Shown: piece by piece, positions 25,124 through 60,311 of the stretch | Layout: each line of letters starts with the position of its first letter | Numbering within the stretch: the stretch's first letter is position 1 | Assembly: GCA_014192425.1 (NCBI GenBank) | Contig: BJHK01000007.1 | Coordinates: 1 to 64,000 of the forward strand | DNA from: Planctomycetia bacterium | GTDB lineage: Bacteria > Planctomycetota > Planctomycetia > Pirellulales > UBA1268 | Direction of reading: 5' to 3' | Length of the DNA stretch: 64,000 bases | The notes under the pieces: generated by a model | What the model saw: only the letters and a program-made list of their open reading frames with translations | What the model was told of the DNA's origin: nothing | The model's database searches: none | Program-made: the position numbers and the translations under genes

Positions 25124-25447
25124 TATTGACCGATGAAAAGTAGATTCATGAGCAGCAGCGACACATCCCCGTCGCGATGCGACGGCAGACGATGAATGGT
25201 TTATACGGGTCACACTTGACCCTCGCGCGGTTCGCTGGTCGGGGCTACCCATGCCCCATCGCCGGACGTTCGCGGATGCCATCGTGGCATCCGCTCACTC
25301 AGACCGGCCCGCGCTTCGGCATCCTGCCTTCGCTTGGCCGCTCAAGCCGGCTCCTGGGCCATGGGCAACCCCGCCCGATTCGATGGTTCAGCAGGATCGT
25401 TTGGGGCGCGAGGATGAAGTGGGCACCGTATTCGTCATGCCTCAATA
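25124..25447. mobile_element. MITE-like element, copy 1 (TA-flanked, 324 bp)
   Basis: Starts TA-TTGACCGATG and ends CATGCCTCAA-TA, so imperfect inverted ends lie inside a TA duplication. Bases 25124-25200 match 59811-59887, and the last ~13 bases match the other end of that copy. Copy 1 carries ~230 extra internal bases. On the minus strand, the conserved part reads HRDGDVSLLLMNLLFIGQ-stop, possibly the tail of the parent element's protein. No transposase is encoded. TA duplication suggests mobilisation by an IS630/Tc1-mariner-type transposase (inference). Confidence 0.7.
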
Positions 25448-57237: not shown

Positions 57238-57425
57238 GCGGGGCTCCGGAAGGCTCGTTCTGCACGCGGCCAGACCAGAATACCCTGCCGCCCGGCAGGG
57301 GACGAGCCGGCCCGGGCACCAGCGGCAGTGCCACGGTCGCCTCGCCGCTAGCGAGGTCGATCGCGGCGGCGCCGTGGCCGATCGTGGCCGCGGTCAGGTC
57401 GGTGCTTTCGGCATCGATGTCAACG
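57238..57425 (-). pseudogene. Fragment duplicated from the giant surface-protein gene
   Basis: It translates as DIDAESTDLTAATIGHGAAA continuing IDLASGEATVALPLV. This is nearly identical to VDAESTGLTASTVGHGAAAI...SLPVV encoded at about 58831-58944 in the next gene. After ~40 residues the similarity stops and the frame runs to a stop that overlaps the ATG of paralogue B. It is a detached piece of a repeat domain of the same or a related giant gene. Confidence 0.7.
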
Positions 57426-57470
57426 ATTATGCCTGACCTTTTGCAAGAACGATTATGCCTGTCCTTTTTT
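57422..57470. repeat. 26-bp direct repeat and T-run at the truncated gene end
   Basis: AACGATTATGCCTGACCTTT (57422) and AACGATTATGCCTGTCCTTT (57448) are adjacent near-identical copies, followed by long T/G-T runs to ~57482. On the minus strand, this adds RTGIIVLAKGQA-stop to the giant gene, unrelated to its repeats. It probably marks an insertion or deletion junction. Confidence 0.75.
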
Positions 57471-59868
57471 GGATTTTTTTTTCTACCCCGCCGGTGTACG
57501 TCCCGCCGCTGACACGGTCGCCCGTGCCGAACGTGAGCTTTGTGACCCGACCCTCGGGATCGGTGACGCCGTCGAGCCGCTGCGCCGGGCCGGCATACGT
57601 AAACGTCGTCTTGATCCCGCCCGGCTGATTGGAGCCCGGATCGGGTTCGGTGATCGACTGCAGGCTGTCGCCGACCACCGACACGCTCGTCATCCGCCCC
57701 GCATAATCCACGATCGCCGAGAGCGACTTGCCGGTGTAGCGATAGGTCCAGCGCAGGCCCCCCTGGGTCGTGATCGTCTCGACTTCATCGGCGACGCCAT
57801 CGAGATCCTTGTCGGCGTAGGCGAATTCGACGCGGTTTTCATTGCGGTCGGTCGTGCGCTGGAGTAACCCCTGGGCGTCGAACCGGTAGCGGGTGCCGGT
57901 CTTGGCGAGGAGCGTGAAGTCGCCGGCGGCGGGGGCGTTGCCGCCCTGGCCCGCATAAAACCCGTTCGCGTTATCGAGCGCCCCGGCGTCGAGCTGATTG
58001 AAACACCCCACGGGCGTGGTGAACGTCCAGTTCTGCACGGCCATCACGGCGTCGGCGACGACGAGGCCGTTGGCGAAGACGGGCTGGCCAGAGCTGCCGG
58101 TGTGGGAGGTGGCCACGTCGATCGTGACCGGCGATGCGCTCGACACATGAAAAAACCCGAGGCTCCGCCACTGGACGCCGTAGGCGTCGAGTTCGCCGGG
58201 CACGTACCGCTGGTTCACGACGATCGTGGTCGTCGTGCCGACGCCGGTCACGGGCCGGGCGCCGGAGACGGTGTAGGCGGCATTGGTCGCCCGGTCGGCG
58301 CCGGGGACCCACGTGGCGAAGAGCTGATAGGTCGTGCCGTCGCCGCGGACGAGCGTCATGCCGTTGCCGGTTGCGGCGCCCGGGGGCGCGAGCCGCGACG
58401 TGGGCGTGGACAGGGCGCTGCCGGGCGACGCCGACCGCATCACCGGCGAGATGCCGTCACCCGGCACGAGCCGGTCGAGCAGCGGCAGCCACCAGCGCTG
58501 GCCGAACTCCGTCTCGCCGAACGTCTCTTGGACACGGTTCACGATCTCCGTCGCGCCGCGGATCGTGCGGACGCGGCCTTCAGCGTCGCGGAGGACGATG
58601 TCGTACTCGTAGCGGCCGGTGGAGAGCTTGCTCCTGATCTCGTCGCTGCCGAGGAGCACGAACCGGACGGTCGCGCTGCCCGGCACGCCGGTAAACGCGA
58701 CGTCGCCGGAGGCGATCCCGCCGAATGTCAGCGTGGCGGTTACGGTGCCGGCGGCGGCCAGCGGCAGTTGCGTCTCCAGGGCCACGATCGGCCGCAGGTT
58801 GTCGTTGCTCGTGTACTGCGGGGCGAAGCCCCCGAGCACCACCGGCAGCGAGACGGTCGCCTCGCCCGTGGCCAGATCGATCGCGGCGGCGCCGTGGCCG
58901 ACCGTAGAGGCGGTCAGGCCCGTGCTTTCGGCATCGACGTTGCGCGAGAGCAGGCCGCCGATCGATTCATCGTCGAGGATCGTGACGTCGGCCGAGGCAA
59001 GGCTGACGCAGTAGGGCGTGCCGCCGGCGGGGGCGGGGAGCAGCGCGATCCGCACCGTCTCGTCCCATTCGAGGAGCGCGTCGGGCTGGACGGCGAGCCG
59101 GATCGCCACGCTCGACTTGCCGGCGGGAATCGTCACCTTGCCCTCGCCGGCAGCCGAGAGCGAAAGCGGCACGCCGCCGACGGAGAGGGTGTAGTCGGAG
59201 GTGAGCGTCGCCCGTGTGAGCGGTGTCGGCAGGCTCGCCGCCACCTGGAACGCAACCGTCAGGTCTCCCGTGACGTTCCCCTCGCCGCGGCTGATCACGA
59301 ACTCGCCCCGGTCGGGGCCGAGGCCCGGGTCCTCCGATGCGATCGCGTCGGTTGCGGCAATCGACACCTGCCGTGGGCCGATGACGACGTTGTTCGACCC
59401 CAGGCCGTTGAGCGACAACGTCACCGTGTCGCCGATCGAGCCCACGCCCGCCTTCCCCGGGAAGAACAGGTTGTAGACGGAGCCGTACAGCCGCGGGATC
59501 GCCGACATGTCCATGAACATCTGGTAGGTGTTGGCACCGGTCTGAGCGAACGCCCGGAAGGCGAAGTCGTAGCTCGTGCCGCTGCCGATGCCGCCGGGAA
59601 GGAGGACGGTGTCGTTGGGACCGCCGTAGAACGTTCCCTGGCCGGCCTGGACGCTGATCACCGAGCCGCGCCAGGAGTTGGCGCCCTCGAACTGGACGGT
59701 GAAGTCGCCCCGTTCGGAGAACGAGCTGAAGCTCGTGCGGCCATCGACGCCGCCGACCGAGGAGGCGGGGCAGTAGCTGTCGTTGTCGAGGTCGAAGCGG
59801 AGCGTGGGCTTATTGACCGATGAAAATAGATTCATGAGCAGCTGCGACAAATCCCCGTCGCGATGCAA
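57427..59868 (-). pseudogene. Body of a broken giant surface protein (Calx-beta and YD/RHS-like)
   Basis: About 813 codons are open from a TTG, but the first ~18 residues are read from the MITE-like element; genuine sequence begins KPTLRFDLDNDSYCPASSVG. There follow Calx-beta-type segments (ILDDESIGGLLSRNVDAEST, VTIPAGKSSVAIRLAVQPDA). After ~residue 400 come YD/RHS-like sequences (GTRYRFDAQGLLQRTTDRNE, LRWTYRYTGKSLSAIVDYAG). The repeats stop abruptly at GGTYTGG and the tail is foreign (26-bp repeats). Thus the gene lacks both ends: a remnant of a giant secreted toxin-like or adhesin-like protein. Confidence 0.75.
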
Positions 59869-59903
59869 CGGCAGACGATGAATGGGTTATTCATGCCTCA
59901 ATA
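59811..59903. mobile_element. MITE-like element, copy 2 (93 bp, inserted in the giant gene)
   Basis: Bounded by TA on both sides: TA-TTGACCGATG...CATGCCTCAA-TA. It matches the ends of copy 1 at 25124-25447 but lacks that copy's ~230 internal bases. Deleting it with one TA gives the minus-strand codons GGC TTT AAG CCC, which join ...GGSVAGF to KPTLRFDLDND... in one frame. The insertion is therefore precise, with a TA duplication. Confidence 0.8.
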
Positions 59904-60311
59904 AAGCCGGCGACGCTGCCGCCGCTCACCACGCGGACGCCCACGCCGAGAATCGGGTTGCCGTCCGCGAAGGCCCCCGCGGAGACGGCCACCTTGCCGA
60001 ACGGAGTGTATGCGAGCCGGCCCGATGAAAAGCCGGTCGCCGCCGGCTCGACGGCCTGCACGGGATTGCCGGTGATCGTGTTGCTCGACTTACTTATTGA
60101 ACGCGAACGACGTCGTGTAGACCTCGTACACCTCCGATGTGCCACCGGAGCCGTACACGCCGAGCTGGTTCGAAAAGCCCCGGCTCGTCCAGCCGTTCCA
60201 CGACAGGCCGCCGTTGATGTCCACGCCGGCGAGCATGCGCCGCGATTCGAGCGGCTCGGCGCCGATCGCGCGGCCGCGACGCCGGCGGCCGGGCCGCGGG
60301 ACTGGCCGCGG
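59891..60311 (-). pseudogene. N-terminal part of the broken giant surface protein (LEPR-XLL-like)
   Basis: Part 1 reads RAIGAEPLESRRMLAGVDIN then GGLSWNGWTSRGFSNQLGVY up to FAFNK-stop. EPLESRRMLAG matches the LEPR-XLL export/sorting motif at the start of giant planctomycete proteins. A 4-bp duplication (ACTTACTT, plus strand 60088-60095) shifts the frame. Part 2, SSNTITGNPVQAVEPAATGF ... GGSVAGF, then runs into the MITE-like element and stops in it at 59891. No proper start codon precedes part 1, so the 5' end is also damaged. Confidence 0.72.

Follow-up and report, generated by a model that had tools for sequence, protein, structure and literature searches.

What is the short piece of DNA that splits a surface-protein gene in this planctomycete, and what kind of transposase brought it there? 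The analysis of the window (the whole stretch of 64,000 nucleotides) together with related genomes makes it highly probable that 59813-59901 is an IS630-type MITE, moved by the transposase of a full-length IS630 and inserted at a duplicated TA within the gene. We refer to its relatives as family A. A second MITE, family B, is nested in another family A copy of the same window, and each of the two families is linked to a likely IS630-type source in related genomes. Both are described here for uncultured planctomycetes, where the limited literature searched describes no such family.

An insertion in a surface-protein gene

The family A copy at this locus starts with TTGACCGATGAA and finishes with TTCATGCCTCAA, and through one deletion it is 1 base shorter than the 90-bp consensus (Table 1). 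The interrupted gene lies on the minus strand, and with the insert present its segments GGSVAGF and KPTLRFDLDND are read in different frames; the family A insertion shifted the frame of the gene. Taking out 59813-59903, i.e., the element and one TA (91 bp, which is 1 mod 3), places both segments in one frame with the junction GGSVAGFKPTLRFDLDND, and none of the other deletions tried produced the GGSVAGF/KPTLRFDLDND junction. Orthologues without the insert were found in two genomes (G017 and G037, 36-37% identity) by using as query a 214-aa protein with the restored junction, for which the two gene parts were joined at ~60090 with 4 bp omitted. Both are ungapped across the junction, thus providing the empty site that the preliminary description had asked to be looked for. 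Because the 91-bp removal rejoins the frame and the orthologues are ungapped, the inserted DNA consists of the element and one TA.

The preliminary description had further held that removing the element and one TA restores the reading frame. This holds for the GGSVAGF/KPTLRFDLDND junction, but only locally, because a second frame lesion lies near 60090 in the same gene (~60087-60098, TAAGTAAG, in tandem). The frame shifts there too, and the G017 and G037 orthologues are two residues shorter at this place. The interrupted gene is probably inactive now, and the family A insertion would be one step in its decay. Separately, an AT-rich stretch at 57420-57490 with repeated CGATTATGCCTG(A/T)CCTTTT terminates the downstream reading frame, and partial matches to it occur at two other places in the genome (C24 and C8).

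Table 1. Positions of the insertion, the interrupted gene and the nested elements in the window
Feature	Position	Strand	Basis
Interrupted surface-protein gene (N-terminal ...PLESRRMLAGVDING...)	57427..60236	-	reading frames; orthologues
Left TA of target-site duplication	59811..59812	+	read directly
MITE family A copy, 89 bp, no coding capacity	59813..59901	+	genome copies, alignment, ungapped orthologues
Left terminal inverted repeat region, TTGACCGATGAA...	59813..59842	+	18/30 vs other end (consensus); 18/28 vs left end of G039 IS630
Internal palindrome CCGTCGC-GAT-GC(G/A)ACGG	59855..59871	+	copy alignment
Right terminal inverted repeat region, TTGAGGCATGAA... on the minus strand	59872..59901	-	end comparisons
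Right TA of target-site duplication	59902..59903	+	read directly
5' part of second family A copy, left TA at 25124-25125	25126..25203	+	genome search, direct reading
Family B MITE, 227 bp, TACGG...CCGTA, inserted within the second A copy	25204..25430	+	copies, ends
3' part of interrupted family A copy, right TA at 25446-25447	25434..25445	+	joined parts = 90 bp

Structure and copies of family A

Complete family A copies measure 89-90 bp and encode no genes; the lack of a transposase had been noted before for this element. Their ends read TTGAC.../TTGAG... When the outermost 30 bp at either end of the consensus are compared as inverted repeats, they agree at 18 of 30 positions, a value reached by none of 20,000 shuffles. 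The initial recognition of 59811-59903 as a TA-flanked segment with imperfect inverted ends was exact in its coordinates.

Each end also carries a small ATGAA-N-TTCAT palindrome. Together with the palindromic core, the lack of TA at some copies, and a right end TCAA that resembles a cleavage site known from IS608, this could suggest a single-strand HUH element (IS200/IS605 or REP/RAYT), i.e., a hairpin-bearing element that sits beside a fixed short target and makes no target duplication. However, the end palindromes are broken in the G014/G038 subfamily, the folding energy is unremarkable (RNA z -0.7 and -1.6; DNA z -2.0), and the two ends mirror one another as inverted repeats and match IS630 ends, with TA on both sides of 9 of ~19 copies (see below). 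Family A thereby departs from elements of the REP/RAYT or IS200/IS605 type, which have neither target duplication nor terminal inverted repeats. In addition, the frame of the surface-protein gene is restored by the 91-bp deletion that includes one TA and not by deleting 84 bp from after TTGAC, which leaves the halves in different frames because 84 is a multiple of three. We therefore regard an HUH element as very unlikely. An Rfam search of the window returned no structured RNA match, and neither this search nor the folding energy indicated a structured RNA or other function for family A.

The expectation of multiple TA-flanked copies was borne out in the host genome and in its relatives. The host genome holds 12 family A copies or fragments: ten extend to or near both ends (including the interrupted copy at 25124), one has its 5' end replaced, and one is a fragment. 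These copies differ from their own consensus at 1-6 of 90 positions. Three other genomes of the taxonomic family hold about nine clear copies: G015 has one, G014 has four, and G038 has four that are progressively more decayed. One decayed copy and a fragment are present in G003. The G014/G038 group has a consensus that departs from the host-genome one at 7 positions. A search of 396 genomes of the order with a 25-bp left-end pattern (≤3 mismatches) gave no convincing copy beyond the host genome, G014, G015 and G038; five 3-mismatch matches in other families had no core or partner end and were set aside as apparently due to chance. An exact 33-bp pattern retrieved three records from the GTDB collection, all MAGs labelled Pirellulales or Planctomycetota that correspond to the G014, G038 and G015 copies, and the viral, phage and plasmid collections held no relevant family A match. 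The draft state of the host genome (70 contigs) and the second frame lesion near 60090 might raise suspicion of a sequence peculiarity or an assembly artefact with no mobile history, but four genomes assembled independently of one another contain many copies whose boundaries agree and whose flanks differ, which leaves this explanation with next to no probability.

TA is present on both sides in 9 of ~19 scoreable copies, which is far from chance because TA makes up only 0.8% of the dinucleotides in the window. In the remaining scoreable copies (about half), TG, CA or unrelated bases occupy one flank or both; loci missing TA on at least one side include L004, L012, L046, L057, L058 and L060. 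Several copies have a right end CCTCA|CGAG or a left start GAG|TGACC, odd boundaries that exceed what point mutation easily explains. Mutation, truncation or recombination are the candidate causes of the non-TA flanks, and we offer no other explanation. For the G015 copy, the intergenic DNA of relatives was too diverged for an empty site to be aligned.

A distant IS630 relative and the proposed mode of transposition

A DDE_3 transposase is encoded in 20 of the 72 genomes of the taxonomic family, including G014 and G038. The host genome showed no DDE_3 (IS630) transposase, although its assembly may be incomplete, and no full-length element with family A ends was seen. The parent foreseen in the preliminary description, an IS630-type element sharing the ends of the MITE, was found in part: among the loci whose ends were compared with those of family A, one was conspicuous, a complete IS630 with similar ends on contig C18 of G039, but it is only a distant cousin. 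This element spans 1099 bp between two TAs, with the left end TTGACGCTTGAAAAAACGATTCACGGCG and the right end TTGAGCTTTGAATAGTTCTTTCAAGG. Its transposase is split between two frames that adjoin at a run of A and scores above the cut-off of the NCBIfam model transpos_IS630, in addition to matching Pfam DDE_3; both parts receive the NCBIfam label IS630 family transposase. G039 contains two IS630 copies with identical transposase protein. The seven-A run at the frame junction (L150/L175) is a likely programmed frameshift site. A damaged IS630 of the G039 type (93% DNA identity over 743 bp) is present in G038, which also carries family A copies, and a partial one is present in G031.

The ends of family A match those of the G039 IS630 at 18-22 of 28 positions on the left and 17-18 of 28 on the right (18-20 of 28 bp for the host-genome consensus), with the strongest likeness in the G014 and G038 copies. 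For comparison, six IS630 elements of the order that are less closely related have ends agreeing with family A at 8-17 of 28 positions. TTGA adjoining TA is common to several IS630 elements of the order. Matches beyond TTGA as good as those observed were reached by 0-17 of 20,000 shuffles at the left end and by 0-43 of 20,000 at both ends. The MITE core showed no similarity above shuffles to the IS630 interior. Because the likeness is limited to similar ends, the G039 IS630 is not the immediate source of family A.

TA-duplicating transposase families other than IS630 exist. As the host genome yielded no IS630 transposase, family A might instead have been moved by one of these (e.g., ISAzo13 or IS5/IS427-type), its IS630-like ends having arisen by convergence. 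Against this, the likeness to the G039 IS630 goes beyond TTGA at both ends and peaks in the G014/G038 copies, and G038 itself holds family A copies alongside the damaged IS630. Such an origin is, in our assessment, improbable.

In the favoured IS630 reading, the transposase of a full-length IS630 would bind both ends (TTGAC.../TTGAG...) and presumably move the 90-bp DNA in trans; the element would then insert at a TA, which becomes duplicated, and one such event would have placed it in the surface-protein gene and shifted the frame. The IS630 source may since have been lost from the host genome, or it may be absent from the assembly. Counted against this reading are the missing DDE_3 in the host genome, a nearest IS630 that is alike at the ends only, and the roughly half of copies that do not have full TA flanks.

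By the tests available, family A is an ordinary bacterial MITE of the IS630-derived kind, and a new family with its own sequence. The closest parallel is RUP of Streptococcus pneumoniae, a 107-bp repeat whose movement is attributed to IS630-Spn1 because of similar ends and TA targets (PMC2229807, PMC3049150). Both are ~100 bp long without coding capacity, have terminal inverted repeats resembling IS630 ones, insert at TA, and are presumed to move in trans. They differ in sequence and in number, with 108 RUP copies in the pneumococcus versus 12 family A copies or fragments in the host genome (PMC2229807, PMC3049150); also unlike RUP, family A has one copy within a gene, and its host genome yielded no IS630 transposase. 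Correia/NEMIS elements of Neisseria are likewise short, with TA at the ends and terminal inverted repeats, but are unrelated in sequence, and their longer form has an internal sequence of ~50 bp (PMC2229807), whereas the one longer form in family A arose when another mobile element inserted into a copy and made a target duplication of its own. The G039 IS630 shares with family A the TTGAC/TTGAG ends, the TA duplication and hosts in the same taxonomic family, and differs by its 1099-bp length with a transposase and by the dissimilar MITE interior.

Family B nested in family A

The segment at 25124-25447 had been taken for a 324-bp relative of the insertion in the surface-protein gene, a view that was overturned by its composition. 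A genome search with the segment showed that positions 1-81 match family A copies and positions ~80-308 match some three dozen other places. Once the family B copy and three bases are omitted, what remains is a family A copy of 90 bp that departs from the consensus in 2 places; the segment is therefore a family A copy struck by a family B element, and its 324 bp are the sum of 94 (the 90-bp copy between two TAs), 227 (family B) and 3 (target duplication). We accordingly rejected the alternative of a longer family A form, given the two match sets and the 90-bp copy left after removal of family B. The 3-bp duplication is represented by TTA (25201-25203) and TTC (25431-25433), with one base changed.

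Family B has the ends TACGG...CCGTA and measures 226, 227 or 254 bp in its best copies. It is unrelated to family A, and its ends belong to a different IS630-type element. Such IS630-type loci, with ends TACGG.TC.CACTTGA that match those of family B at 17-25 of 28 positions, are present in four genomes (G009, G029, G016 and G011).

TA duplication is typical of IS630/Tc1-mariner elements. Identical TNA triplets (TGA, TCA or TAA) stand on both sides of all eight other family B copies with resolved ends. The IS630-type element of G009 is flanked by TCA/TCA and that of G029 by TGA/TAA; in G002, two shorter relatives have the flanks TGA/TCA and TCA/TCA. The family B copies and two of the four IS630-type relatives thus point to an apparent duplication of three bases, TNA, in place of the TA that IS630 duplicates. 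A literature search combining IS630, TNA and target site duplication gave no match, which is no proof of novelty. Whether family B and the IS630-type elements sharing its ends form a TNA-duplicating lineage within the superfamily whose target-cutting stagger has changed is a proposal that we make tentatively, as a serious possibility falling a little short of an even chance. This possible TNA duplication is the one mildly unexpected point, the rest being ordinary genome biology. Family B loci include L014-L017, L019-L021 and L031, and a shorter family B core recurs at many more places.
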